A stretch of DNA of 64,000 bases from Kappaphycus alvarezii. Its lineage: Eukaryota; Rhodophyta; Florideophyceae; Gigartinales; Solieriaceae. The stretch is taken from assembly GCA_002205965.3 (NCBI GenBank), contig NADL03000147.1, positions 143,815 through 207,814 on the forward strand, given 5' to 3'. The position numbers were made by a program, and so were the translations under genes. Under the pieces are notes generated by a model. That model was given only the letters and a program-made list of their open reading frames with translations. It was not told the origin of the DNA and did not search any database. Shown here one piece after another: positions 27,591 to 64,000 of this stretch. Every line of letters starts with the position of its first letter. The first letter of the stretch is position 1.

Positions 27591-27625
27591 TTTAGGGGTT
27601 TTAGGGTTTTTTTTATTAGGGGATT
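27591..27625 (+). repeat. Telomere-like tract at the left end of unit 1
   Basis: TTTAGGGG, TTTTAGGG and, after a T run, ATTAGGGG lie directly before the first base shared with unit 2. A comparable tract stands in the same place at 45,003-45,026. Confidence 0.6.
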
Positions 27626-27649
27626 TAGTTACCGGCCTGGTGGGGATTT

Positions 27650-29100
27650 GGGTGGCCGAGGGGATTTGTTGCACATGTTATTTATATGTTGCGATAAGGC
27701 TTGTATGGTCCTTGGAAGTATTCAGGAGTGCTTCATTGTCTTCCTAACAACAGTTGAAGGCATAGAAGTAAAAATATTTTGGGTTATGACAATTTTTCGA
27801 AAATGTCGATTTTGCCTATTTTTGATGCGGTTGTACCGTTTTTTCTAGGAAATGGATTACAGACCTATATTAACCCGTTATTATTTAAGAAATGGATGGA
27901 GTAGGCAGTGTATCACAACAGTTTTATGAAAAAGTGTGCAAAGATAGCGTCATGCAGACTCGTGGTGTTGCCATGTTTTTAAGGCGGTTTTTGACGGTAA
28001 ACTCGATTTTGTGGAGTGTTTGTTCAACTAAAGCATGAATCTTGTGCTGAGGTGGTCCCTTGATAGTGGTATTCAGCGTCTATATTATATTTGTGTGCTG
28101 CGATCATGGCCTATGCAGTGATATGGGTCGGGGCTACCTGATTTTCCCTACTATATCCATTTTTTGGGATTGCAGTGAAAATCGATGAAATGAACAGTTG
28201 ATATTAGTAAGGTTTATGTTGGATACGCTGCAAGTCAAACTCTGCATAAAAGTGGCCAATGCAAAAAAACTTGCTCTTTAAGCGGAATTGATGACGGCTC
28301 TGTTTGCGAACAAGTGATCCAATGTGCTCTTAGTGTGTTCTTGGGACCTTGTAAAGTGAGCTGGATACAAATTCGCTTTTATCCGAAAAACTCCGCAAGG
28401 AATCGTTAGTAGTAAGAAATTGGGTAAGGTTTCCTGAACACGAGGATCTGCTGAATTTACATAGGTGACGCACTCAAAGCATTTGTTTATAAATTGCTTC
28501 CTAACTGAGAAAAAAAAACTGAATACCGTCTTGCCTTTATTGAATCCTTGAATCCATTTGGTAGAGAAATAATTCCTAAATCCTGATAAATGGAGCAGTT
28601 GGTATTAGTATGCCTTGTTTTCGGTGCGTGGAATGTAATGCTCCGGTGATTGGTGTCGATAAAAAATGACACAGAGCGACCTTTTTGTGTTTACTAGATC
28701 CATTTGGGGATAAATATGACTTGAAATCCGTTGGATTGCTTATATCACAAGAGTAGGAAAAGTATGATGCTGTCCGGGATGTAAGGATTTGGAGAATGTA
28801 TTTGTCTTTAATCAAGTCATTGGCTGGTTCAATGCTTCCTAAATGAGAAACGTGACGTACAAATACCTTATGGTCTTTATTCAATTTAGTTGATGCGTGT
28901 GTTTTCAGTTGCAACCTGATGAATACAGCAGATCACCTTAGTAAGTATTTGCATGGTGCTCGTAATGTGAGGTTCAGGCTAATGGTGGGGTGGGAATATA
29001 TGCCTTGAAATCCGTTGGAGCGATTGTCCTCAAAATGAATTTTTAAGGGACGCCCAGTGTGAGCCTTTCGAGCATGGATGGAGAGCTTTTATCGTTCTGA
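27650..29100. other. Long non-coding left region of unit 1
   Basis: No credible gene. The open frames in it (for example minus 28,576-28,914) have no motif. A core word of the palindrome family, ACAATTTTTCGAAAATGTCG, occurs at about 27,788. The phrase CTTGAAATCCGTTGGA occurs twice (28,719 and 29,003). The position before gene A and the repeat content suggest a control or maintenance region. Confidence 0.4.
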
Positions 29101-29880
29101 TGAATATCAAAGTCTTACGCGATCTAGGAGTGAGAGTCATGTTGGAAGGAGGAATTTTGCCATTTACGTTCATACGGACTGCTTAAGAAACATAGGACTT
29201 ATGGATAAATGACATTGAGGGCCATCCGCACTTGTTTCTAACTGACATGATGTAGCAATGGTAAAGAGATTTTTGACCTCTACAAGGCTCATAGAACTTG
29301 AGCGTCATTCTAGGCTCTATTTCTATAAAAATGATCATGAAATCTATCACAAACGGCAGGGTTTTAGCGTATTTATTACAACAGAGAGATTGTATTTGCC
29401 ATTCCTGGTCTTACTTGCAAAACAATGATCATAAAGTCTACCTTGCATGGCCTTGAAATTTCAGTTCGGAATGAGAGAATTTGGAGCGAGCCGTCATTTC
29501 TGCATATTGTGTTTTGAAAGAAATGGCAGCGAAGATCATCCGGACATATTTCTATCTGACATGATTTCACCATGCAAAAGAGGTTTTGGACAACAACGAC
29601 TTTCTGTGAAATACAAAGTCTTTCCCGGTTCTGTTTACATAAAAATGGCCATAACGTCCATCATATACGGCTTTAGGGTTTTAGGGTTTTTTTTCACCAT
29701 GCAAAAGAGGTTTTGCACAACAACGACTTTCTGTGAAATACAAAGTCTTTCCCGGTTCTGTTTACATAAAAATGACCATAACGTCCATCATATACGGCGG
29801 GGGATTCGTAGTGTGTAATTTCCGGTTCTACTTCCAAAAACATGTTCATAACGTCGAAATAAAACGGCCAGGAGCCGGCG
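29100..29880. repeat. Degenerate tandem array with period near 100 bp (unit 1)
   Basis: Variants of a block ending ATGAYCATAAAGTCYATC...ACGGC recur at about 29,331, 29,426, 29,531, 29,645, 29,772 and 29,841. Two copies (about 29,570-29,671 and 29,694-29,798) are almost identical and separated by a telomere-like CTTTAGGGTTTTAGGG tract. No reading frame is conserved across units. Confidence 0.65.
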
Positions 29881-29969
29881 GGTTGCAATGGAGAGAGTTC
29901 AGAGCAGGCTGCACATATAGTTCTTGGATTTAGGGGTTTTCAATTTGGGTTTCATTCTTGATTTCAGTT

Positions 29970-30006
29970 GCCACGTGTATATCACAATTTTTAGAATTAC
30001 AACTGT
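29970..30006. promoter_or_regulatory. CACGTG palindrome P1 before gene A (unit 1)
   Basis: The left arm CCACGTGTA and the core CACAATTTTTAGAATTAC match the other sites; the right arm is degenerate (ACAACTG). It lies 221 bp before the ATG of gene A. Confidence 0.5.
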
Positions 30007-30226
30007 AAAATCAATAGTCAGTTACTATTTGCTTTGATTTGATTCTGCGCTTGCAATTAATTTGGGTACTTAAAGTCCAACGTTTTTCTTCCGTCTCTTC
30101 CTTCTCCCTCTCCAAACATATCCACATCTACCCTGCATCTCCACCCGCACCTATATCAGAATCAACAGATTATATTTCTCTACTAACTTAACTCGTTGCA
30201 TACCTCTCTAAACATCTCTCTTCCAA

Positions 30227-32567
30227 ATGGCGCAAATGTTCCGTGCCTGTTTTAGCATCAAGCAGCTCAACATCATCTCCGATGCGATGTCAGAGAAGGC
30301 CTTCGTCCTGTCGATAATGCCACTGTCGAAGTTATTGCGGAGGACATGAAAAGTTTTGGTTTTGACCAAGCGAAGAGAGGAACATTTATCATGGGAATCA
30401 AGACTTCGCATAGAGCTCACTTCAACGATGTCGCGCCCGGCTCTATGAAGGGAATGGTTTGGAACTTGAGCGCCAGGGAATTAGAAGCACTTCCATCCAT
30501 AGATCTATGCACCTCACAAGCGGACGCCGAGTCGGATCTGAAAGAATTCATTTTTATTGATGGCCGTCACCGACACAGGAGCATTGTTCAGGCCTTCTCC
30601 GATCGGGATGACATACTGGAAACGTACTTGTACTTTGATGTTTTCCTCAATATACCTACAAGCCAGGCCTTAGTGATGTCTTACAACGCATCTCGCATTG
30701 CAAAATCGTCAGTTCCGTGCTTTCTCGACGAGTTGATCTGTATGAGAGGCCAGAAGTCCAAGCACGAATTACATTCTGCGATGAGGTTGTCGAAGAAACA
30801 GGTATCCGTTCTGAAGCATTTGAATGCCTGCATTACTCCCCTTTCACAGAGAGTGATCCAGCGTTGGCGCTCTTTGGGCCTCTTCTCGCTATCTAACATC
30901 ATGGACAGGGGAAACAGAATGCTATGGACTTTTTGCATGCTTTTTCGCCTGGTACCATCAGATTGACGATGATGCGAAGGGGAAGAAAGAGCGCACTTTG
31001 CTCATCTCTTCACGCAGCTTCTTTGTATTCTCATTCCCGTTTGATGTTGGCTATGCAAGGATTTGTGTTCGCCGCTATTGTTGTTGTCTACCGGCAGGTT
31101 CACAAGAAAAATGGCTCCTTAAGCGCCGCGGGAGTTCTTGAAAGGGTATCCAGCAGCATTACGATCGCAATGCTGGATATACTACCGAGATGGAAAGCCG
31201 AAAACAACAGTCTATCAGATGCACAGAAAATGTTTTGGGCGCTTTTTGTGACTTCGATTTCTTCCACTGCCCCATTTGATCAAGATTTGGAACAAGCTCA
31301 TTCTAAATTTCGCGAGGTGTTGCAGTTGTGGGTTCGGTCGAATTTGCTTGTGAAGATCTTGCACCAGCAAAACATCTATTCGACTCCATCCAGTCTCGTC
31401 TTTCCTCACCAGCTCGTGGCATGAAAATTGGGAAGGGCACAAAGAAGCCCAGATGAAGCAACATCCCTCCAAAAAAGAAAATGCGAGTCGAAAGTCATGA
31501 CGTATCTGACGTAATTGTTGAGGGGAAATTCAAGAGGCTGCTGACAAAATCACCGAAACGATCTCCGAATACATACCAAAGGGGAGTAGTCCCAACGTCA
31601 TTGTTGCTCCGATCCCCAAAACCGGGATACCAATCCAAAGCTCGAGGTGGTGGAACCTATTTTGAAAGTAAGGGAGAAACGCGCCTCGGTCGCAAAGGTG
31701 GTACATCTTACGTCAAAAGAAGTTATGGGGAGGGAAAAGATTCTTCAAATATCTGATGATAGCGTTGGAAGCACGGACGAGAAGTGTCTTGATGTTCGGA
31801 ACGTGGAGAAAGTGAAGATGCATATGCCAGCACGTGAGGAAGCTGATGAAGAGGTTGCAGACCGAACCGAAGACGATGCTGCAATTATGATTCTGCCTTC
31901 AAGCGCCCGCAGGCACCGAGAAAATACTCATTTAAGTGTTAGAAAGACTCGGAGTAGCGAAAGGCTGCGCTCTAAAAGGGACTTCTGCGATTCCCATCGC
32001 AGTAATGAGGTCAAGACGCAGCGCGAACAGGTCCCCTCGCAAAAGGCCAAACGAAAGAACTTCCCGGGAAAACGGGCATCTGAGCCTACCCCTCAACCGT
32101 CGAGTTCATGTGGACGTATTGATCCAGAAGTTCGACGCAAAATTGCGTGCGCCTCAAACTGTCTCGAGCTGGCTGATAAATACCTACAACAAATCGAAAT
32201 CGTTCAGGTATCGCAGCATGAAGAGAGAATTCTCGAAATCGAGCCGGAACCTCTCCACAATGGAGCGAAGTGGATTGGCTTCTTCAAGTCCTATGATAAC
32301 TGCTACGGACATACTGTCTCCGAAGTACTTGAAGAGATTTTCCTTAAGAACTATAACATGGAGTATGCCATAACAATGAACGAGACTGCCGTTATGTCTC
32401 CTGAGAAGTCATTTGGAAATGGAAAGCTTAAATTATACTCTCAGACGATCGTTGTCTCGCCAGAGTTCGATGGGTCTTTGTCGAATATTGCTTCGACATG
32501 CATCTGCCACTTTTTGGTTTACGCTAATATCCTGAGATCCAAACATCGCTTAAAATTCAGTCGTTGA
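30227..32567 (+). pseudogene. Gene A, ParB-like domain protein (unit 1 copy)
   Basis: The start at 30,227 (MAQMFRACFSIKQ) follows P1. A ParB/sulfiredoxin-like core is visible around residue 108: EFIFIDGRHRHRSIVQAF, then MSYNASRIAKSSVPCFLDEL and a helix-turn-helix-like segment LHSAMRLSKKQVSVLKHLNA. ParB proteins bind centromere-like sites and use such a fold as a nuclease or CTP switch. The second half is charged, contains PPKKKMRVE (present in the unit 2 copy as a nuclear-type signal) and ends KHRLKFSR. This copy is broken near 30,300, 31,326 and 31,450-31,650 by indels absent from unit 2. Shifts near 30,945 and 31,040 are shared by both units. Confidence 0.55.
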
Positions 32568-33520
32568 GCTCCGAGGGTTTAGAAAGTGACCTTCACGCAT
32601 TTCTCAAATTGGAGTTTAGCAAAATCATGCAGAGATTCCCTCGTTATAAAATTCTCGACGTCACCGGCGAGGATACGGAGGTTCTCAAGGAATTTCTCAC
32701 CGTGACCCGTCCATCATCTCCGACAGTTTTCCGAAAGGTCATGGCATGGGTGTTCGATGGCCGGAGGTCGACATCAATTGGGGTCTTCGAGGCGTTGAGA
32801 TCTATTGTCCTGAAGAAGTGCCATTGTGGTGGTCATTCGGTCCTTGGAAAACATAATGAAGGTGCTTTCAACCGCCATCCTGAAAGAGATAACCTTGACA
32901 GATCTGTTTCTGTTCCTTTTCTGATGACACTGCATCAGTCGGATAGAGTGATTTCCGAAATTGGTTTGAAGGCACATGTAAGCATTTTTCTAAGTAAGAA
33001 CACCCCTACATCAGAGTCAGACTGTTACAAGAGGTTCAACGATGATGGAACTCCGGTGGAACTTGGCGCTTTCATTTCGAAGGAGCAGGCCAGGGAAATA
33101 ATCCAGCGTGGGGAAAGGCCTTTGCCATTGGTTCTTGGGCAGGCATATTTAGTTGACTCAGAGAGTGGCGTCAAGGATCACAAGCATCGCCTATCGCCGT
33201 TTGAACAGCGGGAGCTGTTTGTAAGCGGTATAACAGATAAGCTGTACTGGCTCTTTTTCCATGACGATAGCCTAGCTTCTAAATTCAACCACAACAGTGA
33301 CGGCAGTTGCGTTGTCTACGAACGGCAGCTGGACCCCGCACAGCTCACGGAAATATACTCAGAAGGAACGAAAGCGCTAAAAAAGAACCACCTTGTTGTT
33401 CCGATGTTGTACCCCAAGCTATTGGAAAGGCTGTTGAAGTCCAAACAATGCTACGAATGTCCTATATGTGGTGCTGTAGAACTACTAGTAGACTATGGAG
33501 CAAGTTACACATTCACTTAG
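32564..33520 (+). CDS. Gene B, C-terminal part of gene A product or separate protein (unit 1)
   Basis: An open frame of about 318 codons follows gene A in the -1 register, overlapping its stop (frame B is open from about 32,531). It starts LSSEGLESDLHAFLKLEF. It has KKCHCGGHSVLGKH near residue 88, possibly metal-binding, and a C-terminal CYECPICGAVELL that could be half of a zinc ribbon. No enzyme family is recognised. The frame is identical in unit 2 with the same break, so the junction predates duplication. An intron, a programmed shift or an old mutation are all possible. There is no ATG at its start, supporting expression as part of A. Confidence 0.5.
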   Translation: MSSEGLESDLHAFLKLEFSKIMQRFPRYKILDVTGEDTEVLKEFLTVTRPSSPTVFRKVMAWVFDGRRSTSIGVFEALRSIVLKKCHCGGHSVLGKHNEGAFNRHPERDNLDRSVSVPFLMTLHQSDRVISEIGLKAHVSIFLSKNTPTSESDCYKRFNDDGTPVELGAFISKEQAREIIQRGERPLPLVLGQAYLVDSESGVKDHKHRLSPFEQRELFVSGITDKLYWLFFHDDSLASKFNHNSDGSCVVYERQLDPAQLTEIYSEGTKALKKNHLVVPMLYPKLLERLLKSKQCYECPICGAVELLVDYGASYTFT

Positions 33521-33634
33521 CGTGTCATCAACTTGGGAGTAAAGAATGTAATCCGAGCAATGGGGAGGTGCTAAAGGGTAAACAACTCGCAACCAAACAG
33601 TTAAGTTAAAAGAGCTTATTTTTCAGAGCACCAT

Positions 33635-33672
33635 GACACGTGTATTCCAAAAAATTGCCAATTACACGTGGC
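33635..33672. promoter_or_regulatory. CACGTG palindrome P2 (unit 1)
   Basis: The arms are GACACGTGTA and TTACACGTGGC around an A/T core of about 20 bp. The flanks (AACAGTTA before; CAAAAAGGCTC after) are shared with P3, so the whole promoter segment is duplicated between the two genes. Confidence 0.7.
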
Positions 33673-34514
33673 AAAAAGGCTCCCTGTAAACAGGGGTTAT
33701 GTGACGAGATATGGTAAGAAAAACCTCCTAACCGGTGGCGGTCTTGAAAACTCCTGGACTTTCATCCTTTCGCTGGGTTACATCAATGGTTTTGTGTACC
33801 AAACGGCAAAATTAGGGGTCCAGTCGTCCCCAATCGAGTTGTCGGTATCGCTGTCTAACTGTTTCAGGCATTTTTTTGCAGCACTTAGCGCAGTGAAGCA
33901 GCACGTTTCCTTGTTGAGGTGGCTCTTCGGCAACCAAGGCAACGTGTTTGATGACATTGGGCTACTCTACTGCTGCGGCACAGCAACGGAGTTTAGTGGA
34001 AGTGACGTGGTCAGTGCCTTTGGTGAGGGTGAGGTGGGTGGAAATGAGTTGAGAGGCTTGATGCAAGAGGGAAGGATGGAGTGAGGACAACTGATAGAGG
34101 AAGCGCCAGCATGGATCTGCAGGAACTTCCGTCATTCTCACGGTTGATTCGTAGACTAGTCGTCCTATCATTCCGGAATTTCTTGATCGGAAATGCCGCG
34201 ACCTTGTGGGAGACGAGCTCGAGACGGAGTTTTGCCAACATTAAAACATTTTTAGTCCCTTGTGCAGATGCTCGCGCCAGTCATTCCCATCTTTGTCAAA
34301 AAACCCCGAAAATCCCCTAAAGTTGCCACCATTTGTGTTTGTGGATGAATTGAATCAAGGGCAAAACTTCCTCCTCTACACTTCTTCGACTCCTTTCTTC
34401 GAAATCTCTCCAAAACAAATACTTTTCCAACAATCAACGTCACCACCCTCATGCCCCCTTCCCCCCGGCGCCTTCCGCGCGCGCCCGCCCGGCGCCCCGC
34501 CGCGCTCGGCATGG
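33673..34514 (+). other. Remnant 5' region of an interrupted family gene and retrotransposon leader
   Basis: P2 should drive a member of the D/E/F/G family, whose C-terminal end lies beyond the retrotransposon at 39,438. The segment here has open frames (33,668-34,084 and 34,081-34,320) without recognised motifs. A short stretch at about 34,000, RSLVEVTWSVPLV, resembles a strand in the family's C-terminal half. The last 170 bp before 34,515 are probably the 5' leader of the inserted element. The exact insertion point is not visible. Confidence 0.3.
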
Positions 34515-37500
34515 ATGGGTACATCCTATGCCGCCGTTGCGTCACGCCCGCCCCGCCGCCCACAAACCGCCCCCACACTAGTGCCCATCACCAAGGTCGA
34601 GCTTCCACGCGTCGACCCTGCTATTGGCGCACGTGTCATGAGCCTCCCGCAGGCTCAAGCGCTCATTGGCCAACCGGCCAATGCCTCTCCCCAGACCCTC
34701 GCCCGTGCTCGGGAGCTCGTCGCTCTCGGCGCCTCCGCCCCCGGTCGTCTCAATCCGCGCACGGGGGAGCTTGAGCCAACGCCCCCTCCCGCCCCGCAAC
34801 TCGCCCACTTGGGCATCGCCACCACCCCGGACCGCTCCTTCGCCTCCTACCAGGCTGCCCAACAGTTCCTCGGGGAGGCTGCCGCCCTCGCTAACACCGC
34901 GCTGCCCCCGCACGTCCTCATCCCTCACGTGGGAAAATGGACGTTCATTTACTTCCCCGATGCTGCCCGACAGGAGATGTTCTCCATCCTAGCCCACCTC
35001 CAGTGCATGTTTCCGGACCTGCAAACCACAACGACGACCATCGCGGCCACCGCCGCAGCCCTGGATGACTCCGCTTCCCAAGGAGTCGTGACACGCCTTG
35101 GCCGAGAGGCCAACCGCCTACTCGACCCAACCCTTCGCTCCTGGGTCCTTCCCTACGTCCGCACGCGGCCCTCGCAACGACCCTGCGCCACATGCTCGCC
35201 GACGTCATCGACACCCGTCGTGCCGCCCGAGCTCGCCCCTCACCCGCCCAACCAAGACCCCCGTCCCACCCAAGACCCCCGCCAATCCCACCCGCCCACC
35301 CGTTGTGAGCCCCGCTCACCCCACCGCCCCGACCTCTCCTGGCTCCGCCCGCAACAAGCGCCCCAACGCGCTACCGCCTCCTCCCCCCTCCCCGGGCACG
35401 CCCCGCAACAATCCCCCGACCTCACCCTGCAATCCCCGGGCTCTTCACCCTCGGCGACCAAACGCCGCTGCGCTGCATCCGAAGAGGCCCCCGCGGCGGA
35501 GTTCCTGATGGTGCCCACCGCAACCCCGACGCTCCCGGCCGTTCTGCCGCCCACTGTCGCCTCCTCGGCGCCACAGGGTCGGGAGTCCGCCACACACGCC
35601 GCCATGCCGCCGTCGTCCATAGGCATGCAAGATGTCCAACCTCCGACCCAGGGACCCACTCAAGACCCCCGCTGCCCCCTTCCTCCAGCTGTCGGTGCGT
35701 CCGCAATGGAAGGAGTGCGGTCGGGTGACGGCTCCTCCGCTAAGCATCCTCCCCATGGACATCTCACCCCACCCATCCTCCCTCCTCCGCTGCCTCTCCC
35801 TTACCAAGCCCCGAAGACATCCTCCGCACCCCATACCGGGAAAGGGACATCTTCCAGGATATCCCATTCCCATTTCTCAAGCCCTTCACTCTCCTGTTTA
35901 TCAAGCTGGTACAAGCCGCCGCCAACGCAAGGGGGGACGAGGCCACCTACCGTGCCTTCCTGCACCTCCACATGCTGCCAACCGCTGTCCTCCGCCGCAG
36001 ATTGCGGGGAGGATGGCTGGCAGCATAACAAAGGTCAACGGGCCGCACTAAGTGCCCGAATCCGACGCGCCCATACCGGAGCTGAGTGGAACACCTTGTG
36101 GTTTGAAGCCCTTCGCGCCCATGAAGCACGCTCTGAATGGATCCAGCAGCACCGCCCCGCCTACGGCTCGGGCTCCAGTGACGCTCGGCGCGCCCGTCGC
36201 GCTGAAGCCCTCTGTGCAGACGCCCGCTACGGCAAGGCCATGCGGTCCCTGCACAACGCTCCGCTAGCCGATGTGAACGACCCGCACACCATACAAGCGC
36301 TGCGTGATCTTCACCCCGCGCCCCCGCGCCCGATCACGCCCATTCCTGAAGATGGCCTTCCTTCTCCACCATCAATCACGGCAGACGCCGTAGAGCAGGC
36401 TGGACGAGGTATTTCTCGTGGTACGACCGCGGGACCGGACCGCACGCCGGCACGCTGGTTCCACTTGCTAGTCAAAACATCGGTCAGCCCGGCCGCCGGG
36501 GTGACAGGGAAAAGTGTGCTTACGAAGTTGGTGATGCGGATCGCGCGTGGGGAACTGCCGGACTCGGTCCTGCCCCTGCTCGCTGCCGCAACATTACTCC
36601 CGCTACGGCCGAGACCGGACAAAATTCGTCCCATCGCTGTGGGGTCGGTCCTCCGCCGCATCGTCACCAAGACGCTGCTGCCGAGCGCCATCGATGACTC
36701 TCGAGACTTCCTCGCGCCATTCCAAACGGCCAACGGTGTCAAGGCCGGGATGGAAGCGGTCATCCATGACACTCGCACCCTGCTTCGCCGTTTCACTGGT
36801 GCTCCGCATGTTGCCACGGTCCTCATTGACGCGCACAACGCTTTCAACCGCGTTGATCGCCAGTCAATGCTGTCTCAACTTCCTGCACTCGCTCCTTCTC
36901 TGGCCCGCTTCGTGAATATGATATACGGTCGTATTCAGCCACCGTTGCTTATACCGAATCGCCAGAACACGGTCATCTCGAGTGCTCAGGGCACCCAGCA
37001 GGGCGACCCGGCCAGTATGTTGCTGTCTTCCCTCACGATCCAACCATTAATTCGGAAAATCGCCGAGGACAGCGACATCGTGCTTAATCAATGGTACGCG
37101 GATGACGGGACTCTCATAGGGACACTTCAGGGTCTGCGCCGCGCTCTCCACCTCCTCCTAAAACCCCTAAATCCGGCTGTGGGCCTCTATGTCAACGCGA
37201 GGAAGACGCGCATTTACTGGCCGAACACGCTCCTGCCGGACCGCACGGAATTCCTCCGGGTTTTTCATCTGTCCGAGTGCTCGCGCGACGGCTTCGAGCT
37301 CCTAGGAGCGCCGATGGGCAACCGGGCCTTCACCGATGCATACCTACGGGACAAGGTCGATGGGTGCCGCTGCACCCTCCGACTGCTGACCACGTTCGTG
37401 ACCCCCGCGCCCGTTTCCACATGCACCGGCTGTGCGCGTCGGCATGCCTCGTCACCCAAGCGTTCCGGCTCGCCGACCCACAACACTCGGCCCCCGCTGC

Positions 37501-39384: not shown

Positions 39385-39437
39385 CCGTATAGTCAGTCCT
39401 GCAGTGTACACGATAGATACTCAATGAAGTAAAGTTT

Positions 39438-41181: not shown

Positions 41182-41195
41182 TACAAAACTAACAG

Positions 41196-42846: not shown

Positions 42847-42851
42847 GGGGA

Positions 42852-54900: not shown

Positions 54901-56119
54901 ACCAAGTCACGCTACCCATCCGCCAGGGAGGTCACGGATTTACCCTCATCTCTCCGTTCCTACACGGCTCGGTCGCAGCTAGTATCATCGACGCGGTTCC
55001 GGCACGTGAGAGATCGGCATCGTATACCACGCAACGTTCTGCCGCCGTCTCTGGTCACCGATACCGAGGTGACAGGGCGTTCCTGGTCCGACAAGCCTTG
55101 CCGCGAATCCGTGATTTCCTGCAATGTATCCCTGGGCGCCCGTACTCCGTCGACCTCGGCCCCTTTGACCCATGCCTGCTTGCTGCCAAACCATCCAACC
55201 TCCAAACCTTCTTAAATGCTGTGCAGCAGGAGGCACAGGCAAAGGTCCACTGGCGCGACGACTCATGGTTGACACACCCCAACCCGGCTCAGCACAGCAC
55301 TCAAGAAGTTCGACATCGGATCCGTGGCCTGGCGTTCCGGAACAGCCCCGCCGCCGCTTTTCTCATCGCTCACCCCACAACCGCTACGGTGGTGTCCTCG
55401 GCCCACTGGCAGACCATGCTCCGCCGGCACCTAGGCCTCCCCGTGTACGACGACTCCCGCCCGCTCACCTGTGCCCACTGCAATCAAACTTTGGACGCAC
55501 TCGGGGACCACGCGGCTGACCTCTGCCCTGCCGGCTTCGGCCGCCCGCACCGCCACAACTCGCTGCGCAACGTTTTCGCCTACCACGTTGCTCGCGCCGC
55601 GGGCCTGGACTGCCAATACGAAGTCCCGCTCCTTGTCCCGGGAACGAATATCCGTCCTGCGGACATTCTCATACAACCCCCCCCCTGCCCACTGGTCAAC
55701 AGGTCCGCCCCATAGCCTGCGACCTAACCATTGTCTCGCCGTTCAAACAAGGTGTGCGCACAAGGGCCACCCAAATGGCCGGCGGCGCCGCTGACATTGC
55801 CCACCGAGACAAAGTCACAGACCTGGAGCGCAAACTGGTACGCCGCATCCCGCCCCCTTCGCACAACACCCTCCAGGAACCGAACGTCAAGTTTCAGCCC
55901 CTGGCTTTCGACTCCTTGGGTGCCCCATCCCCCGCCTCTATCCTGTTCATCGAAGACTTCATCCCGCGCATCGCAGAGAAGTTCAACACAACCACAGCAG
56001 TGATCCGCAGACGTATTTATCAGCGCATTAGTTGCACACTGTGGTCTTCTATTGCAATGGCGATTCTATCGCGAGCCCCACTGCACGTGCCTGACGTGGA
56101 ACATCCGGTTAGTTCTTAG
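51922..56119 (+). pseudogene. Non-LTR polyprotein: gag-like, RT and endonuclease (unit 2)
   Basis: The start corresponds to MGTSYAAVAS in unit 1. The N-terminal and proline-rich parts contain several C/G-run indels relative to unit 1 (for example near 51,968, 52,190 and 52,312). RT motif A is LIDAHNAFNRVDR (about 54,150-54,188). The active site is broken by loss of one G inside the YADD codons (about 54,420). The frame resumes from 54,504 to 55,715. It covers the thumb region, the CAHCNQTLDALGDHAADLC zinc motif intact in one frame (about 55,468-55,526), HNSLRNVFAYHVARAAG and the first endonuclease residues RPADILIQ. One more shift near 55,680 precedes the end (55,754-56,119). Confidence 0.85.
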
Positions 56120-56172
56120 CCGTATAGTCAGTCCTGCAGTGTACACGATAGATACTCAATGAAGTAAAGTTT
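51922..56172 (+). mobile_element. GC-rich non-LTR retrotransposon with RLE endonuclease (unit 2)
   Basis: Same insertion as in unit 1 but without the solo LTR, so it shows the uninterrupted element: about 4.2 kb of coding sequence plus a short 3' UTR ending near 56,172 in front of the family gene fragment. Confidence 0.85.
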
Positions 56173-56358
56173 CTCCCGCTGGATTACGTGAATGAGGGAA
56201 GAATAATGAGAATGATGTTTGAGGATTCCGAAAAGGAGAATGCGCCACAGAGTTTCGTCATAACGCCGAAACTTTTGCCTGATTTACCTTTTTATGCCCA
56301 TACCAAGTCGCATATCATTTTTAATGGAAGAGTAACCGGCAAAGATATGCTCTCCTGA
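56173..56358 (+). pseudogene. C-terminal fragment of a family gene cut by the retrotransposon (unit 2)
   Basis: Identical in reading to 39,438-39,623 (LPLDYVNEGRIMRMMFEDS to GKDMLS). Confidence 0.55.
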
Positions 56359-56483
56359 CAGTTTCCATTACATTTTGGAAAGGTATATGTTTTGGAAGGC
56401 CGAAATTCTTACTGGAAAAAAGGTTTTTCATGTTAAGTTACAGTGCAGTAAACAGTTAGAGAGCTTACTTTTCTAGTGCCTGT

Positions 56484-56522
56484 GGACACGTGTATTTCAA
56501 AAAATTTCCAATTACACGTGGC
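56484..56522. promoter_or_regulatory. CACGTG palindrome P3 before gene D (unit 2)
   Basis: Same as 39,749-39,788; about 224 bp before the ATG of D at 56,746. Confidence 0.75.
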
Positions 56523-56745
56523 AAAAAGGCTCTCTGTATAATGATTTGGTTATACCCATGGTGCAATTATCTTATCCCGGTAAATCTGCCGGGTGAAGAC
56601 TCCTCGACGTGCTTTCCCGCGCAATACCTCTGCTCTATTGGAAATGCATTGCGCCGCTGAAGAGTGTCAATAAATAGCCACTACATCAGACCCAGTTTGA
56701 TTTCAAATCGCTATTCCCTAACATATTCTCCCTCCCAATTTGGAC

Positions 56746-57780
56746 ATGTTCTTTACAGCTACGCTGAGGCAACCCGCAAAGACAGTTCCCGTCTGCGTCC
56801 TCTTCGACAGCGATCCTGATTCCCCAGGATCGGTTGAGCAACACCAAAGTCTTCCAGACGCTGTGCGGGTGAAATTCGACTTGGAGAGGTATCACAAATT
56901 TGGTACACTTCCCCAAATGACGATGGTGGGTCCTGTGACTCCAGAAAATTCGCCATTTGTCATGAGTGGAGGTTTAGGGGCTGATGAAGCCCCGGGATGC
57001 GTCTCATTGACTACACCGGTGGGAGTTTGGAGGCTTGGCCTAAATCCATTCTTCAAGGAGACCAAGGATCTCGTCCATTTATCGCAAAAATCTGGGCTTC
57101 CACAGGAAGGAATGTTTTTATCAGGCCAGAATATTGGATCTGCCAGAATTACGAAGAAGAAGTTGAGCGAGATGAGCCCGTGTGAAAAATGGATTGCCGG
57201 TCTCGCTCTTCGACTCGTTCAATCGACATTAGCGGTAGTAAAGTCTGTACGAAAAATATACCCTGTTGTGGCGCCAGTGCGGAAAAGCTTGAGAAATTCG
57301 AACAGGTTCTGGGTGTGGTATCCATCGGCAAAACCACGTTGTCTTAGGTCTTGGCTTGAGCATTTGTGGGTTGGAGGTATCAAGGCTGAGCAAGAAGGTA
57401 ATCTAGAACAAGTATATCCCCATATTGCAGGGTTCTATTTGTCCATACCTTTCATGCAAGAAACTACGAAGGATGATCTGGCAAAACTAGCTTTTTTGGA
57501 GGAAGAGGGATCTACGTACATCCCCATATCATTACGGGATATGATCGTTGGAGCAACAGCCGAGTTTCTAGCCCGTCTAGAGGTACGAGCACCAAGAGAT
57601 GAACGCAAAGGCCTTCTGGACTGGGGTTTCAGGTATAAAACGCAAGTTATTGAAGCATTCGTCCTCGAGGAGGCTACGGAAATATTCCTCTACGGTCCAG
57701 TCCGATCCGGGGAACCGCGCGTGGAAGAGACTTTTGGGAGGAACAGGCATTATCAATTCAAAGGGAGTCCCAGCACATAG
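56746..57780 (+). CDS. Gene D, unrecognised element-specific paralogue family (unit 2)
   Basis: It starts MFFTATLRQPAK and reads as in unit 1 for 320 residues, with the family blocks EKWIAGLALRLVQ, FWVWYPSAKPRCLRSWLEHL and AGFYLSIPF. The last part is GPVRSGEPRVEETFGRNRHY, ending at 57,780, shorter than the unit 1 version because of one base at about 57,719 and another difference near 57,755. The length of about 345 residues is close to that of the folded part of E, so this end may be the original one. It faces gene E tail to tail with about 150 bp between. Confidence 0.6.
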   Translation: MFFTATLRQPAKTVPVCVLFDSDPDSPGSVEQHQSLPDAVRVKFDLERYHKFGTLPQMTMVGPVTPENSPFVMSGGLGADEAPGCVSLTTPVGVWRLGLNPFFKETKDLVHLSQKSGLPQEGMFLSGQNIGSARITKKKLSEMSPCEKWIAGLALRLVQSTLAVVKSVRKIYPVVAPVRKSLRNSNRFWVWYPSAKPRCLRSWLEHLWVGGIKAEQEGNLEQVYPHIAGFYLSIPFMQETTKDDLAKLAFLEEEGSTYIPISLRDMIVGATAEFLARLEVRAPRDERKGLLDWGFRYKTQVIEAFVLEEATEIFLYGPVRSGEPRVEETFGRNRHYQFKGSPST

Positions 57781-57929
57781 ATTTATCACTTCTTTCTCCA
57801 AACTTTGTGACAGAAATGAGAATAGAATGACAGTTCTCACACACAGAAACGTCGTTCAAAATACCGAAATGAATGTACATCGGCCAGTGAAGAGAAGAAG
57901 AGTAAATTAATTTAATACAAAACTAACAG

Positions 57930-59582
57930 TTACAGCTTATTCAATTCTTCGTCAATTAGACGATCCACTTCTTCGTCAGAGTCCATATAACTACTCTCAT
58001 CGCTCTCGGAGCTCTCTAAAGTGGTGAATTTGCTCCTATTATCCTTAGGAGGCTCTTGGGGTTTAGAGGTTTTCGTTTTCATCACAGGTTCCTTCTGAAC
58101 AATTTGTTGCCTGCTTGACTGGGCATCACTCTCACCCGGTGGCGATTCGTTTTTCCTCTGAGCTGTGGTCTTAGAAACTGAACCTTTTTTGCTCCGTTTA
58201 AGTTTAGGAGAGCCAGAGGTACCTGCTGTGCCTCTTTGGAAAGGTCTCTTCTTGGGACGTATTTTCTTGAGAGTAGATTTTGCGGGTGCCGATGATTTAG
58301 TAGTCCTTTTTTCGGAAAAACTTTCCTTAGACGCTTCATGAGCAGCAGAAACTTCTCGCGAACTATTCGTAGTGTCATTTTTGGGTCCTTTACTGCTTTT
58401 GGGAACGGTGGACCCTGAGACCGGACGCGCTTTCGACGACACTTCTTTCAGCTTGGAATGGTCGTTCTCATTCCAACCGATTTTTGACCCCATAATGAAC
58501 CCAGGTAAAGATGATATGATTTGTTGGAGGTTGTCCACAGCGTTCCTCTCAACGCCGGCTGCCCTTTGGTCTACTTTCAACTTCTTCATGAACGATGACC
58601 AACGATCGGAGGCATTAGAACCATGCACTGCGGATCGATATGGGCCGAGACATCCAGAAAAAATTAAAGGATTTAGGGGAAGCACGAAGCAGTCCACCAC
58701 CTCATTAAAGGAGAAAACTGACGCCCCTGGCGGAGAGGAAGACTTGGGAACGTCAATATTCAAGGGGAGCGTGATTTGAAGGAATCGGCTGGATCCTTGC
58801 TCCACTTCGTAAGCTTGAAGTCCATTTGAGTCCAGGGGCTCTTCGTCAAAAACGACTCTCATGAGCTCCTTAGGGCCCTGACTGGGAAGCGTGAACCTGT
58901 AGAAACCTTCTAGGGACGGTAATATGTTCAGCAGGTCGTTCGAGTCATATCCCCTTCCCTTTGAAAGAAACTCAATCCACTTCACAAGCGATCGAGGGGT
59001 AGCGGACGGATACCACATCACCCATTGATTTTGCGTCTTGCATCCTTTCATAGGCAGTTTGCGATCCAGTTGATCACGATTCGCCTTCGGCAATACGCAC
59101 ACGGTGAGAAATGCACGTGTCAGAACGAAGCGGCTCACTGCAAGAGTCCCTATCCAAATCATCGCTGCCTCCTTTCCGGGGCGAATGTCGCCGTCTTCGA
59201 ATTTTTCAATTTTTAGCATATTAAGGTTGAGTTTGAAGTTTTGCGATCCATTTTCTCCCGAATAGTCACTAAGTAAAGAGTTTTTGTTCTCGTAGCACTG
59301 GACATCCAAGCTGTACTCCGTTCGGTATGTCGTGTCCACTAGGCGGAGTTCATTTTCAGGGGATCGAGTGACGAAACCAGGTATTGAATTGGGAATTTCT
59401 TTGCCCTTTGAGAAGAATACGACGGGGATCTGTACAGCGCCAACGTTAATTTTTGGGAGATATTCAGCAAGGAGAAGGGCTTGCGGGGTGCCAGGCTCCA
59501 TCATCGTGCGACTATCGTCATTGAAGAAGAGAATGCCACTCAAGCTCTTACTGTTAGAGATGTTGGTGAGTTTGGAAAACAT
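57930..59582 (-). CDS. Gene E, family paralogue with basic and acidic tail (intact, unit 2)
   Basis: An uninterrupted 550-codon gene starting MFSKLTNISNSKSLSGILFF at 59,582. The folded half carries the family blocks: GILFFNDD near residue 20, MIWIGTLAVSRFV near 139, WVMWYPSATPRSLVKWIEFL near 184, EGFYRFTLP near 226 and RFLQITLPLNIDV near 270. The C-terminal 200 residues are low complexity and lysine/arginine-rich (KKIRPKKRPFQRG; PKLKRSKKG), followed by an acidic end (ESSESDESSYMDSDEEVDRL). This suggests a nuclear, DNA- or histone-associated protein. Such a tail is absent from D, F and G. It is divergent from F across P4 and convergent with D. Confidence 0.75.
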   Translation of the reverse strand: MFSKLTNISNSKSLSGILFFNDDSRTMMEPGTPQALLLAEYLPKINVGAVQIPVVFFSKGKEIPNSIPGFVTRSPENELRLVDTTYRTEYSLDVQCYENKNSLLSDYSGENGSQNFKLNLNMLKIEKFEDGDIRPGKEAAMIWIGTLAVSRFVLTRAFLTVCVLPKANRDQLDRKLPMKGCKTQNQWVMWYPSATPRSLVKWIEFLSKGRGYDSNDLLNILPSLEGFYRFTLPSQGPKELMRVVFDEEPLDSNGLQAYEVEQGSSRFLQITLPLNIDVPKSSSPPGASVFSFNEVVDCFVLPLNPLIFSGCLGPYRSAVHGSNASDRWSSFMKKLKVDQRAAGVERNAVDNLQQIISSLPGFIMGSKIGWNENDHSKLKEVSSKARPVSGSTVPKSSKGPKNDTTNSSREVSAAHEASKESFSEKRTTKSSAPAKSTLKKIRPKKRPFQRGTAGTSGSPKLKRSKKGSVSKTTAQRKNESPPGESDAQSSRQQIVQKEPVMKTKTSKPQEPPKDNRSKFTTLESSESDESSYMDSDEEVDRLIDEELNKL

Positions 59583-59587
59583 GGGGA

Positions 59588-59702
59588 GATGGTAAAGGAG
59601 GAGGCTGAATGTAGATGGATGGTAGAGGAGGAAGATGGATGGTAGAGGAGGAAGATGGATGGTAAAGCAGAAAGATGGATGGTAAAGCAGAAGGGTGAAT
59701 GT
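59588..59702. repeat. Tandem GATGGATGGTA repeat in the leader of E (unit 2)
   Basis: Same repeat as 42,852-42,965. Confidence 0.7.
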
Positions 59703-59798
59703 ACATGGATGGATTTTGGTAGCGATGGGACTGGGACTCGCAGTGTGTCAAGTGGAAGGATGGGCGTGGTATATATCTATTTTCAATGTCCACGTGTG

Positions 59799-59838
59799 TC
59801 CACGTGTAATTTGAATTTTTTCGATTTACACGTGTGTT
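59799..59838. promoter_or_regulatory. CACGTG palindrome P4 between divergent E and F (unit 2)
   Basis: Same as 43,063-43,100, with the extra CCACGTG box on its left. It is shared by two genes reading away from it. Confidence 0.75.
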
Positions 59839-60085
59839 CTGAATTTTTCAGAATTATGCAGAATTTACAGGTCAACCTCATCACTCTTCTCTTCCCGCCC
59901 CATTCTTAATCAACGGCTCTTTCACACCCCCGGCCACCTTTCCATACCGCCCCCACTTACCCGTCCTCCAACTCTTATCGGCACACCCACTCATTTATCT
60001 TGGCCGACCTGCCACAATTTTTACAGAACACACGCCCACTCTTTCTTTTCACTCACCCTCTACTGAAACCTATACGCTAGCAGCA

Positions 60086-61308
60086 ATGTTTATCACCACC
60101 GAACTTGCTGGCTCCAGTGTATGTGGTATCCTTTTGTACTATTCCAATCCTTCCAGAACTCGTCCTACTCGAAACACATGGCCACTTTCTGCGGTATTAA
60201 GGGACGACATTCGTCTATTACTCACCCACAACTGCCTACCCGAATTGATGCTTGTTTATTACAAGACAGGTCCTTCTGAAGCTCCGACAGTTGTGAATTG
60301 CCACATTTTTGTGAAGGAAGGTACAATCAATCTTCTTCTTCCAGATGGGACGTCGGCAGCCGTGGATATGGACTCGCATAAAAGCCACAATAACCGCTGC
60401 CTCTCTGCTAAATTCCCATTTAGGGAGATTCCTGTACCCACTGGAATATTAAGGGATACGAATGGGGAATCACATAGATCGGATACTGAATGGAAGGTTT
60501 CGTGGGAGCTGCTACATCCATTCTTCCATTCCTTTCGGGGAGTGGATCTGGCGAAAACTTGGATCGGATGCCTCATTCTCCACCAAGCTGCATGCCTTCA
60601 AGAGCTCTTACGCGTCATGAAGCTTCCCTGGGATGCGCAGAATGCACTTTACCAACAAGTGGAAGCAGAAAATGGAGATGACCAAGCTATTGATGAATCT
60701 GCACCATTCATTTGCTGGATATGGTGGTCTTTATCGAAACCAGTAGATTTAGGTGCTTTCCTCAATTGCCTTTACGATCAGGAAAAGCTATCGTTCGATT
60801 ATCTGAAAGAAGTCCTCTGTGAAACACATCCATTTCGCTCGGGTTCTATCGGATTTTGCTGTCGGAAGAGGTCAAGAAGGACGATAATGACCATGATATC
60901 ATGATTCTCTGGCACACAGAGTCGTTCCTTCAATATGAGATCACGGTCACTTCTGGGAGGGATGAATCGTTGGAGGCGAATAAGTTTGGGCCTAATTGTT
61001 TGAAAAGAGTCCGAATGACGCTGCAAAACGCATCTGTTATTCCTCTCCCAGCAGGACAGTCCTCTTCATACTGGGATGCCAGCCGATCACTGGGTCGGCA
61101 GACGAGTTTCCTTGTGAAAACATCGTTCCATAAGCTCCCATGCTCTTTCAGTCCTGTTAGTAACCCCTTGATGTCGCCCCAGGAGGCTGCGCTTTGGACG
61201 GACCACCGCCTTGGTCCGTCTCGGAAACTTGCCGGCCCGCTGCGACAATGTTTCGAGGCAGAGGGGCTACTGGGATTATCAATGCTATGGAAAGTAGTAG
61301 ATGAGTAG
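60086..61308 (+). pseudogene. Gene F, family paralogue (unit 2 copy, one frameshift)
   Basis: The frame is open from MFITTELAGSS at 60,086 to 60,904 and again from 60,856 to 61,308. One A missing near 60,844 (CGGGTTCTA against CGGGATTCTA in unit 1) breaks the SGFYRILLS block. Family blocks: KTWIGCLILHQAA near residue 156 and CWIWWSLSKPVDLGAFLNCL near 209. Three bases fewer than unit 1 are present at about 60,668 (EAEN against EAEEN), an in-frame change. With the two private shifts discounted, both units encode a protein of about 408 residues. Confidence 0.65.
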
Positions 61309-61331
61309 CACAGAAACAGAATAAAATTTAT

Positions 61332-62510
61332 TTATCTTTTCACCACTATGGTCGTTTTCACTAGTTTACGAATATCAAGGAACGAAGATAGGTTCTTTAA
61401 ACCTTGGCGTACTAGGGTTTTCTGACGATTGGCGTCCACTTCTTTTGCAACATTATCGCACCATGCCTTTCTCGTCCACTGGTAGCTCTGAGACCTTACC
61501 ACACCAGCCCCAATGCATGTTTCTAGAGATGAGTTAATGAAAACAAGGTTCACAGACTTATGTTCAAACGATATCTCCGCTATTTGCGTTCCTTCTACTT
61601 TCAGATGAAATGCAATAGGTACCGTCACTGAAATAGAGGCCACATCATCATAAAGAAGATCTGAAGTGTCCACTATAGGGTAGGGAGCGTCCGATTCGTC
61701 ATCCAGGTAGATCTTATCGTTCCCCACGACAGCTGAGTAGAAACCAGTATAATGAGGAAAAGACCGTAGCAAAGGAGTAGCAATATGAATTGGGACTCTT
61801 TTCATGGAATAGACATTTCGTATAAACTCCCTTAAATTCAGTGGCTTTGGAGTTTGCCACCACACAAAAAGGTTCCCCTCTCGATTAACTTTCGTTGGAA
61901 CAAAGGCTTGCGCTTTTTTAGGACGATTCATGCATATTTCTAATAAAGCACGTGTGCTCATGTGGTGAATGACGGTTAGCGCCGCAATCCATTCCTTGGC
62001 AATCCGCTCTCCATTCAAAGAACTGTCTTGGTCATAAAATTGGCCGATATTGCTCGTCTGTAGTTTCATCATAGGGAGTTCTGAGTGATCGGAGAGTATT
62101 GGACACCTGACGTTGTATCCAGTCGCATATGTTATCAAAAGAATTTGATGGTTGATAAGTCTGCAAGGTTCGAAGTTCAACCGCCAGTACATATGTTGGT
62201 TTTCTTTCAGGCGAAACTCTTCCCTTTGCCAGGACAAGGCACCCTCAATAATTTCGGGAGAGGCGGCGTTCGGAAAATGGACTAATGTCACCAGAGAAAG
62301 AACTCCGGTCCGATTGCGAATAAATCCTTTCAGACGAAGGCTTGGTGGCGCGAAACCCCTATATTCGGTGTTGTACTCCTCGTAGTCGAATACCACTGCC
62401 GGAAAGGTAGATGGGTAAGGTGAGCTAGAGCGTTGGGGAATACTTTGAGACGGTTTTTCGGCTACGCAAAACATTTTCTTCGAAATGTTTATCAACTGTT
62501 GATGAGCCAT
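61332..62510 (-). CDS. Gene G, family paralogue (intact, unit 2)
   Basis: An uninterrupted 392-codon gene starting MAHQQLINISKKMF. Family blocks: AVVFDYEEYN near residue 39, KEWIAALTVIHHM near 173, LFVWWQTPKPLNLREFIRNV near 214, TGFYSAVVG near 258 and ASISVTVPIAFHL near 294. It starts with MA and a 15-residue extension rather than MF, and its palindrome P5 is closer (about 90 bp) than in the other genes. It is convergent with F, with about 20 bp between the stops. No signal peptide or known enzyme motif. In unit 1 it is almost wholly deleted. Confidence 0.75.
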   Translation of the reverse strand: MAHQQLINISKKMFCVAEKPSQSIPQRSSSPYPSTFPAVVFDYEEYNTEYRGFAPPSLRLKGFIRNRTGVLSLVTLVHFPNAASPEIIEGALSWQREEFRLKENQHMYWRLNFEPCRLINHQILLITYATGYNVRCPILSDHSELPMMKLQTSNIGQFYDQDSSLNGERIAKEWIAALTVIHHMSTRALLEICMNRPKKAQAFVPTKVNREGNLFVWWQTPKPLNLREFIRNVYSMKRVPIHIATPLLRSFPHYTGFYSAVVGNDKIYLDDESDAPYPIVDTSDLLYDDVASISVTVPIAFHLKVEGTQIAEISFEHKSVNLVFINSSLETCIGAGVVRSQSYQWTRKAWCDNVAKEVDANRQKTLVRQGLKNLSSFLDIRKLVKTTIVVKR

Positions 62511-62599
62511 AGCGGGTAAAGTGATTTTCTAATTTAATAACCAGATTAGACTGCGCCACATCAGTGATCCCAAAATCCATTTCAGAGAGAGCATCTATG

Positions 62600-62636
62600 C
62601 CACGTGTAATTTACAATTTTTCGAAAAACACGTGGT
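62600..62636. promoter_or_regulatory. CACGTG palindrome P5 before gene G
   Basis: The arms are CCACGTGTAA and ACACGTGG around TTTACAATTTTTCGAAAA; it is the best-formed site of the set. It lies about 90 bp from the start of G. Confidence 0.8.
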
Positions 62637-62923
62637 GCGACGTTTTCCCATGTTCCTCACCACTTCCTAGTACGTGTGGCCCGACACCGCAGCCCATAGC
62701 CGGTTCGCATGCAACCTTCGTCTGCGCCGGCGCCGGCTCCCTTCTTCCAACATACACAATCAGCGTACGACGCCTTCTATTGCCACTCTGAATCATCCCT
62801 TCCACCCATCACCGTTTCTCCCCGTCCAGTGTCAGATCTCACTCCGCGCCATATACCAACCAGGCCGATGGGGGTCTCACATACGCTGGGACCCGACCTC
62901 CACCCGACCCCAGGCGGAGTTTG

Positions 62924-62960
62924 CAACGTGTAGATTACAATTTTTCGAAATACACGTGGA
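62924..62960. promoter_or_regulatory. CACGTG palindrome P6
   Basis: The left arm is slightly altered (CAACGTGTAG); core ACAATTTTTCGAAA; right arm TACACGTGG. Confidence 0.7.
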
Positions 62961-63036
62961 AAAAGTACCACAAATAACCATAAATTGATAATGAAAAAAA
63001 GGGCAAGCCGGGAGCACGCGGCAATCACTGAACTAT

Positions 63037-63073
63037 TGACACGTGTAACTAACAATTTTTCGAAATACACGTA
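63037..63073. promoter_or_regulatory. CACGTG palindrome P7
   Basis: The left arm is GACACGTGTAA; core ACAATTTTTCGAAA; right arm TACACGTAA, one base off. It is 113 bp from P6. Confidence 0.7.
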
Positions 63074-63372
63074 ATCAGGAGGAGTATACAAATGGCACGC
63101 CTGGGAGCGATGCCGCAATTTCTAACATTTAGCCGTGTCTGTGTGTGACAACGTATTTTAATGTGTTCTGGCTAATCCCTTCCGCTTCTCTGACTAGCTC
63201 TTAGCTCTAGCTCCTACCTGCTCAACGAAGCAAAGCGCCCTTGTTACCAATATCCCTACCCACATACAGTATCTTTCGAATTGACACTGCATCCTGTAGT
63301 CTCCTCTATCATTTGCTAAGGAGGAATGAAACATTTGAGAGAGGAGGAAAGCGAGGAGAAAAGGGTGGATAG

Positions 63373-63531
63373 GGTGCGACGAAGATTCACTTGCCGCACC
63401 TTGGGAGACAGCTTGTGGAGGTCACCCTTCCTATTGGGCTTGTTGGGGATGAGGTGAACGAATTTATATCCAAAACACTGCGTCGAATTCCTGGTTCAAG
63501 CGAATTCGGCAACACCCCTACTGACTGGTGA
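63373..63531 (+). pseudogene. C-terminal scrap of a sixth family gene
   Basis: The open frame between stops reads IHLPHLGRQLVEVTLPIGLV, then GDEVNEFISKTLRRIPG, ending at 63,531. The stretch RQLVEVTLPIGL parallels RFLQITLPLNI of E and ASISVTVPIAF of G. The joint with unit 3 falls at its end, so the gene was probably truncated on both sides. The match is short and needs a profile comparison. Confidence 0.4.
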
Positions 63532-64000
63532 GAGTCATGTTGGAAGGAGGAATTTTGCCATTTACGTTCATACGGACTGCTAAGAACATAGGACTTATGG
63601 AAAAATGACATTGAGGGCCATCCGCACTTGTTTCTAACTGACATGATGTAGCAATGGTGAAGAGATTTTGACCTCTACAAGGCTCATAGAACTTGAGCGT
63701 CATTCTAGGCTCTATTTCTATAAAAATGATCATGAAATCTATCACAAACGGCAGGGTTTTAGCGTATTTATTACAACAGAGAGATTGTAGTTTGCCATTC
63801 CTGGTCTTACTTGCAAAACAATGATCATAAAGTCTACCTTGCATGCCTTGAAATTTCAGTTCGGAATGAGAGAATTTGGAGCGAGCCGTCATTTCTGCAT
63901 ATTGTGTTTTTGAAAGAAATGGCAGCGAAGATCATCCGGACATATTTCTATCTGACATATTTCACCATGCAAAAGAGGTTTGGACAACAACGACTTTCTG
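63529..64000 (+). repeat. Start of unit 3 (partial)
   Basis: From TGAGAGTCATGTTGGAAGG onward the sequence matches 29,131 to about 29,610 of unit 1 and the same part of unit 2. The first 1.5 kb of the unit is missing, and the joint lies in the degenerate array. Small indels distinguish it from both other units. It runs off the window. Confidence 0.9.

Follow-up and report, generated by a model that had tools for sequence, protein, structure and literature searches.

A tandem multi-gene element with telomere-like seams and a repeated 34-bp palindromic site in the red alga Kappaphycus alvarezii

Units of the array and their genes

The window analysed here is a 64,000-nucleotide stretch of the genome of the red alga Kappaphycus alvarezii (contig NADL03000147.1, positions 143,815 to 207,814). 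Its right part contains a head-to-tail array of a large multi-gene element. Comparison of the window with itself revealed two near-identical units, A and B (Table 1), with identities of 99.2% (27599-35253 against 45005-52655), 98.1% (35312-38069 against 52638-55396) and 99.7% (38660-44675 against 55392-61407). An earlier reading of the letters alone, here termed the sequence-only reading, had described at least three units of 17-18 kb. The head-to-tail repetition is borne out over these three matching segments and two copies are present, but the third unit, C, is represented only by its first 473 bp, which are about 98% identical to the corresponding parts of A and B. Unit C is without the 1.5-kb left block (block X) that opens the other two, and its junction with B is plainly head-to-tail with a period of 16,997 bp. 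The left edge of the array, formerly placed at 27617, lies instead at 27591/27599.

Outside positions 34441-39442, units A and B differ by 35 indel or complex events and 15 single substitutions over 12,072 aligned columns. Many of the indels are of one base within single-letter runs, as is expected of a lightly corrected long-read assembly. As a result of the indels, a gene may be open in one unit but shifted in the other. The single substitutions are unevenly distributed, at 0.38 per kb in the right part (39443-44674), 1.9 in the left part (27625-34440) and 4.4 in an inserted retroelement (34441-38069 against 51849-55396 in B, compared with 0.4-1.9 around it), where a cluster lies at 35.33-35.42 kb. 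Different ages or local gene conversion, the only candidates offered, may account for this pattern. Unit A also holds 74 bp of the retroelement that unit B lacks, and the right ends of the two units differ. These differences, together with a solo-LTR-like (long terminal repeat) insertion and its target duplication in A only, mark A and B as separate copies. They rule out one copy read twice and leave room for two alleles in series.

The predicted ParB-like gene encodes a protein with an N-terminal IDGRHR motif, a basic and acidic middle and a Cys-containing C-terminal end. Indels specific to one copy interrupt its frame, as does a single shift near 32.53 kb. Because this shift is found in both copies, the last 330 amino acids (aa) may belong to a separate gene. 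The gene proposed in the sequence-only reading is present, but its label has not been supported by profile or plasmid searches. The FIDGRHRHRSI stretch, which is presumed here to resemble the ParB/sulfiredoxin motif, is the sole basis of the name and is unsupported by any profile. No ParB match was found in Pfam or NCBIfam to an expect value (E) of 10, in PHROGs to E 5 or in the PDB sequences to E 1, and a tblastn search of the ParB-like part against 72,556 plasmids to E 10 gave no match. Neither the first 424 residues nor the last 330 had a homologue at E<=1 in the protein search, and no relative of the ParB-like part was found in the genome contig set, a comparison that finds close relatives only. 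No ParA-type ATPase or Rep gene was found in the open reading frames (ORFs) of the element that were scanned. This and the other negative profile results apply to the ORFs scanned, from which those below 110 aa and many overlapping or antisense ORFs were left out; ten further ORF stretches compared with Pfam agree with these results. Weak matches taken as chance include MutS_III (E 0.25), Fungal_trans_2 (E 0.056), Sec20 (E 0.2), DUF1390 (E 0.066), TIGR01568 (E 0.11), dapB_plant (E 0.066), phrog_16351 (E 0.046), phrog_10904 (E 0.067), mitochondrial transcription factor A (E 0.77) and PDB 6t5a (E 0.33).

Four further genes, E, F, G and H, were read without introns, as was the ParB-like gene, with the first in-frame ATGs taken as starts. 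The family of related proteins recognized earlier is confirmed for these four. In Smith-Waterman alignments against 100 shuffles, the z-scores were 13.2 for E-H, 12.7 for H-G, 10.8 for E-F, 9.4 for F-H, 4.2 for E-G and 4.0 for F-G. In leave-one-out searches of the window's 1633 ORF segments, each gene was recovered by a profile of the others (E 4.2e-8, F 5.4e-8, G 6.2e-5 and H 1.7e-11), and the full family profile found no further member above threshold among the same segments beyond the genes' own ORFs. The coding DNA of the four genes has no mutual similarity by blastn at E 1e-5, which suggests that the proteins have been conserved over a long divergence. On this evidence from alignment, E, F, G and H are four diverged paralogues. 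A fifth family member, suspected by eye to be cut by the retroelement at 39.4-39.6 kb, was dropped after both the shuffled alignment and the profile failed. A family-alignment search of 5.8 billion proteins, in which the 8000 candidates sharing most words were scored, returned one relative, P0001 (212 aa, on a 1,158-bp contig), with 58% identity over 34% of E. The eukaryote coverage of the protein set is not given, and the near-absence of relatives is not proof of absence.

The inserted element is a non-LTR retroelement (long interspersed nuclear element, LINE), as had been noticed from the letters, and its reverse transcriptase is recognized by RVT_1 at the same position in A and B. The G+C content of the LINE is 0.61-0.67 in four 2-kb windows. 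Its 3′ end (39214-39439) is also found at 14860-15092 (88%) and 24707-24922 (69%), the three related ends sharing 66-88% identity. By eye, the C-terminus resembles a CCHC plus PD-(D/E)XK region, although Pfam gave no match there; such a region would make this a restriction-like-endonuclease LINE. In unit A the retroelement is interrupted by the solo-LTR-like insertion, which begins with TGATATAATG and ends with CCCCTATCA. Unit B contains the uninterrupted, empty site near 55396. Judging by its ends and target duplication, the insertion has the features of a solo LTR that entered unit A once the unit had been duplicated.

The 34-bp site and the telomere-like seams

A 34-bp site with the consensus CACGTGTATTTCGAAAAATTGCAAATTACACGTG carries CACGTG at both ends and agrees with its reverse complement at 26 of its 34 positions. 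It accounts for the repeated palindromes of the sequence-only reading and extends them to one site with 12 copies (seven distinct), all inside the array and none seen in the left 27 kb. The consensus pattern with up to three mismatches has eight matches in the window and none in 100 shuffles. A matrix was built from six distinct sites, leaving out the one upstream of the ParB-like gene. It scored ten places at 49.0 or more and two others at 30.6 (29972 and 47374), these being the A and B copies of the left-out site. The best other place among the top 25 listed per strand scored 8.0 and overlaps the F/G site, and in 30 first-order random sequences of 64 kb the mean best score was 6.9 and the highest 20.5.

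The gap between site and ATG is 221 bp for the ParB-like gene, 223 for E, 218 for F, 251 for G and 90 for H (126 from its second ATG), with one site common to the divergent genes F and G. As the distance to the start is nearly constant for unrelated and related genes alike, the site resembles a shared promoter element, and the sequences fit a shared promoter switch better than partition sites. Three sites crowd within 0.5 kb (62601-63073). CACGTG is a common target of eukaryotic basic helix-loop-helix (bHLH) and basic leucine zipper (bZIP) factors and is found as well in bacteria, as the core of parS; the binding protein can therefore not be read from the sequence.

Contiguous pairs of the motif T2-9AGGG(G) occur four times on the forward strand of the window (27591, 29672, 45003 and 47073) and never on the reverse strand, and none was found in 40 third-order random sequences. 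The four represent two distinct loci, each present in A and B. The match between the units opens within a telomere-like word at 27599/45005, reading ...AACAA/TTTAGGGGTTTTAGGGTTTTTTTTATTAGGGGATTTAGTTACC in A and ...GAAAATG/TTTTTTAGGGGTTTTTTAGGGGATTAGTTACC in B, where the slash marks the start of the match; the sequences to the left of these two positions are different. Short telomere-like repeats in one orientation lie at the seams at 27591 and 45003, and not at the B-to-C junction. The motif at 29672 splits two copies of a 107-bp repeat, giving a repeat-seam-repeat layout at a small scale. The telomere repeat of Chlamydomonas has been reported as TTTTAGGG, and TTATT(T)AGGG is described as a candidate telomere repeat of the red alga Galdieria (PMC7046594).

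The right end of unit A is broken. The segment 44674-45006 is an inverted copy of 62468-62799 (333 bp, 98.5%), and it is followed by the seam motif and then by unit B. A truncated end, an inverted duplication, a telomere-like cap and a new unit are as expected of end breakage, healing and recombination.

Table 1. Features of the array and their positions in the window
Feature	Position	Strand	Remarks
Unit A	27599..45005	+	98-99.7% to unit B
Unit B	45005..63527	+	46531-63527 is one 16,997-bp period up to unit C
Unit C, start	63528..64000	+	matches 29130-29606 and 46531-47007; telomere-like motif not seen at B-to-C seam
Seam, left edge of unit A	27591..27624	+	TTTAGGGG TTTTAGGG T-run ATTAGGGG
Left block X	27625..29129 (B: 45027-46530)	.	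directly right of seam in A and B; absent from C
Two copies of 107-bp repeat	29565..29798 (B: 46966-47200)	+	between them TTTAGGGTTTTAGGG and T-run
Site upstream of ParB-like gene	29972..30005 (B: 47374)	-	score 30.6; weakest copy, one half-site degraded
ParB-like gene	30227..33520 (B: 47629-50928)	+	predicted; ATG 30227 (A), 47629 (B)
Site downstream of ParB-like gene	33637..33670 (B: 51045)	+	no assigned gene
LINE with reverse transcriptase	34245..39442, ends approximate	+	RVT_1 E 1.5e-9; same place in both units
Solo-LTR-like insertion, 590 bp	38070..38659	.	TG...CA ends, GTGTC 5-bp duplication; A only
Site upstream of gene E	39752..39785 (B: 56487)	+	
Gene E, 390 aa	40009..41181 (B: from 56746, shifted near its end)	+	relative P0001
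Gene F	41196..42846 in A (end approximate); 57930-59582 in B	-	broken by indels in A; open in B, 550 aa
Site between divergent F and G	43065..43098 (B: 59801-59834)	-	
Gene G	43351..44576 (B: 60086-61308)	+	frame shifted in both units, at separate positions
Broken right end of unit A	44600..45004	.	about 75 bp of H's end, then inverted H promoter and first codons
Seam, broken end of A / unit B	45003..45026	+	TTTTTTAGGGG twice
Gene H, 392 aa	61332..62510	-	open in B only
Site upstream of gene H	62601..62634 (copy in inverted end of A: 44840)	-	
Further site upstream of H	62925..62958	-	no assigned gene; in B-to-C spacer
Further site upstream of H	63040..63073	-	no assigned gene; in B-to-C spacer

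Candidate origins of the array

The near-identical units, the motif at the left edges of A and B and the broken, inverted end of A point to a subtelomeric multi-gene element in a head-to-tail array on a chromosome arm, a reading held with moderate confidence. As the G-rich strand reads rightward at the A and B seams, the chromosome end would lie to the right of the window. The tandem multi-gene element of the sequence-only reading is supported, in that none of its own ORFs gave a transposon or virus profile match in the scans made, and among the candidates of that reading the subtelomeric selfish unit is the one that the seams favour.

In the proposed mechanism, the outer end of unit A would have broken and been healed by the addition of a short telomere. 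Short telomeres, first at the end on the host side and afterwards at the broken end of A, may have invaded the telomere-like motif to the left of another unit. Break-induced replication (BIR) to the chromosome end would then have copied block X, that unit and everything beyond it (B and C), with the B-to-C junction, which has no motif, copied along from the donor. Growth of this kind has been proposed for yeast Y′ and MoTeR arrays, whose gene content is unrelated. The 34-bp sites may serve as operators or enhancers that switch the genes of the element together, and their binding partner may be either the element's ParB-like protein or a CACGTG-binding factor of the host. The products of E, F, G and H may be nuclear proteins that help the element to persist. 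A more specific version can be put forward only tentatively. It describes a new class of eukaryotic selfish chromosome-end element with a regulon of its own, made up of a ParB-fold (CTP-switch-type) protein and paralogous nuclear proteins, in which one palindromic operator would drive the genes and be bound by the ParB-like protein and amplification would proceed via telomere healing and BIR with no transposase.

Several points weigh against this account of the array. Each seam amounts to no more than two or three repeats, and the seams are telomere-like by comparison with the Chlamydomonas and Galdieria repeats, which may not be those of the host. No telomere motif was found at the B-to-C seam in the scan of the window for TnAGGG pairs. 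The two seams have a common unit to their right and may represent one inherited edge rather than two healing events. The window ends inside the array and reaches no chromosome end. With regard to the genes, the binding of the 34-bp sites by the ParB-like protein is a conjecture from sequence. Three of the seven distinct sites (33637, 62925 and 63040) have no assigned gene and do not fit the promoter reading, and the site-to-ATG gap of H is unlike the other four.

If the array is subtelomeric, it shows that telomere healing and recombination can be put to use by large multi-gene elements that are related neither to Y′ elements (with their helicase) nor to retrotransposons, and that a co-regulated gene set can form part of such an element. 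The 34-bp site also offers a direct way to ask if gene regulation by a ParB-like protein occurs in a eukaryote.

An unlikely alternative is an integrated circular plasmid-like replicon, a 16,997-bp circle (46531-63527) present as a head-to-tail concatemer and kept by the ParB-like protein and its sites. Such a concatemer would explain that B joins C with no seam motif and that C restarts at the base equivalent to 46531. There are several sites per unit, including three within 0.5 kb beside the B-to-C junction, two of which have no assigned gene. However, four distinct sites lie upstream of genes and are spread over the unit, the ORFs scanned gave no Rep, ParA or ParB profile match, and the plasmids gave no tblastn match to the ParB-like part at E<=10. 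The A-to-B seam, moreover, has 1.5 kb of extra DNA and a telomere-like motif. The maintained replicon to which the sequence-only reading had likened the array is thus not supported, as five genes have an upstream site (four at 218-251 bp) and neither ParA or Rep nor a ParB profile was detected in the scanned ORFs. It is kept alive by the three sites with no assigned gene and by the crowding of three sites within 0.5 kb.

It is quite unlikely that the array belongs to an undescribed class of mobile elements that have a defined left end and insert at or beside TTTTAGGG-like sites. An identical left edge in two different left contexts and several orphan genes with a common upstream site would suit such an element. 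On the other side, the ORFs scanned gave no profile match to a transposase, recombinase, polymerase or integrase apart from the reverse transcriptase of the LINE. A matching right end is absent, and unit C starts 1.5 kb into the unit.

Equally doubtful is an ordinary tandem duplication of a segment with host genes, in which a lineage-specific gene family would share a promoter element and the telomere-like words would have arisen by coincidence or from an old fusion. Tandem duplication of gene clusters is common, and both the genes of the array and the Hint gene of the left flank can be read with no introns. Against this, telomere-like pairs occurred in none of 40 random sequences of similar composition and are placed on the unit edge, and relatives of the genes are almost absent from the proteins searched.

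An assembly artefact, in which one genomic copy or two alleles were laid out twice, is very improbable. Outside the LINE, short indels typical of uncorrected long reads make up most of the differences between A and B, but the solo-LTR-like insertion with its target duplication and the 74 bp of LINE are confined to A and the right ends of the units differ. An algal virus remnant, also named as a candidate earlier, is without support. Six scans of the viral contig set, which find close relatives only, revealed no relative; five were made with proteins (the N and C parts of the ParB-like protein, the E-H family, H and the LINE) and one with the 34-bp site.

Known systems and the left flank

Y′ elements carry a helicase gene, and no helicase profile was found in the ORFs of the element that were scanned. 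In Saccharomyces, Y′ elements are reported as kilobase-sized multi-copy tandem blocks split by short interstitial telomeric sequence (PMC13022453). The present array resembles this in its multi-copy tandem blocks and, at two of three seams, in short telomere-like sequence. It differs in its several orphan genes and operator-like site, in a B-to-C seam with no motif and in a unit of 17-18 kb, compared with 5.2-6.7 kb in Y′. By analogy, the array may function as Y′ arrays do, but it cannot be classed with them.

MoTeR arrays are described as having telomere seams of few repeats that change by breakage and BIR; seams with no more than two telomere repeats are stable, and BIR takes place from one element to another (PMC7367193). 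A related paper deals with the FoTeR telomeric retrotransposon arrays of fungi (PMC12857005). Arrays with telomere-like seams of few repeats are common to these systems and the present one. MoTeRs, however, are retrotransposons within the telomere, whereas the LINE found here sits in the middle of the unit, with 5.6-6.6 kb between it and the seams of unit A, and the unit itself is not a retrotransposon abutting telomere repeats.

Conserved blocks of 20-30 kb near telomeric repeats, with unannotated and retroelement genes, have been reported for cyanidiophycean red algae (PMC9812998). As the source describes them, these are common to the ends of different chromosomes and do not form a tandem array with promoter palindromes; the likeness is one of description. 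The resemblance to ParB/parS lies in the IDGxHR-like motif, presumed to be of that kind, and in the repeated palindromes with CACGTG. The differences are the lack of a ParB profile or ParA in the ORFs scanned, the position of four of the seven distinct sites upstream of genes and the spaced double CACGTG. No Pfam match to the hallmarks of Polintons and giant viruses (DNA polymerase B, integrase, capsid and packaging ATPase) and no Pfam or NCBIfam match to the tyrosine recombinase of Starships and Cryptons was found in the element ORFs scanned. The tests made set the element apart from MoTeRs, partition systems, Polintons and tyrosine-recombinase elements. A search of the literature by title or abstract, with most subscription journals outside its scope, found no paper on such an element.

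No Rfam family or tRNA was found in the 64-kb window. A gene with a Hint module (hedgehog-type) lies in the left flank at 15550-16851 (PF01079, E 4.7e-23), in an intron-less reading with frameshifts. Such a gene would suit a red alga, as Hog domains have been reported from several of these (PMC2362128), but other protists as well. Direct repeats of about 370 bp, 77% identical and 5.6 kb apart, delimit 2897-8834, possibly an old LTR retrotransposon; a copia-like ORF fragment was read between them at 6936-7280, where Pfam gave no match. A second LINE reverse transcriptase fragment at 26444-26986 matches RVT_1 at E 1.5e-5, below Pfam's own cut-off. A DDE_3 transposase ORF (19337-19816) lies between inverted repeats of about 206 bp that share 89% identity, and this region (19089-20658) represents a Tc1/mariner-like element with long terminal repeats.

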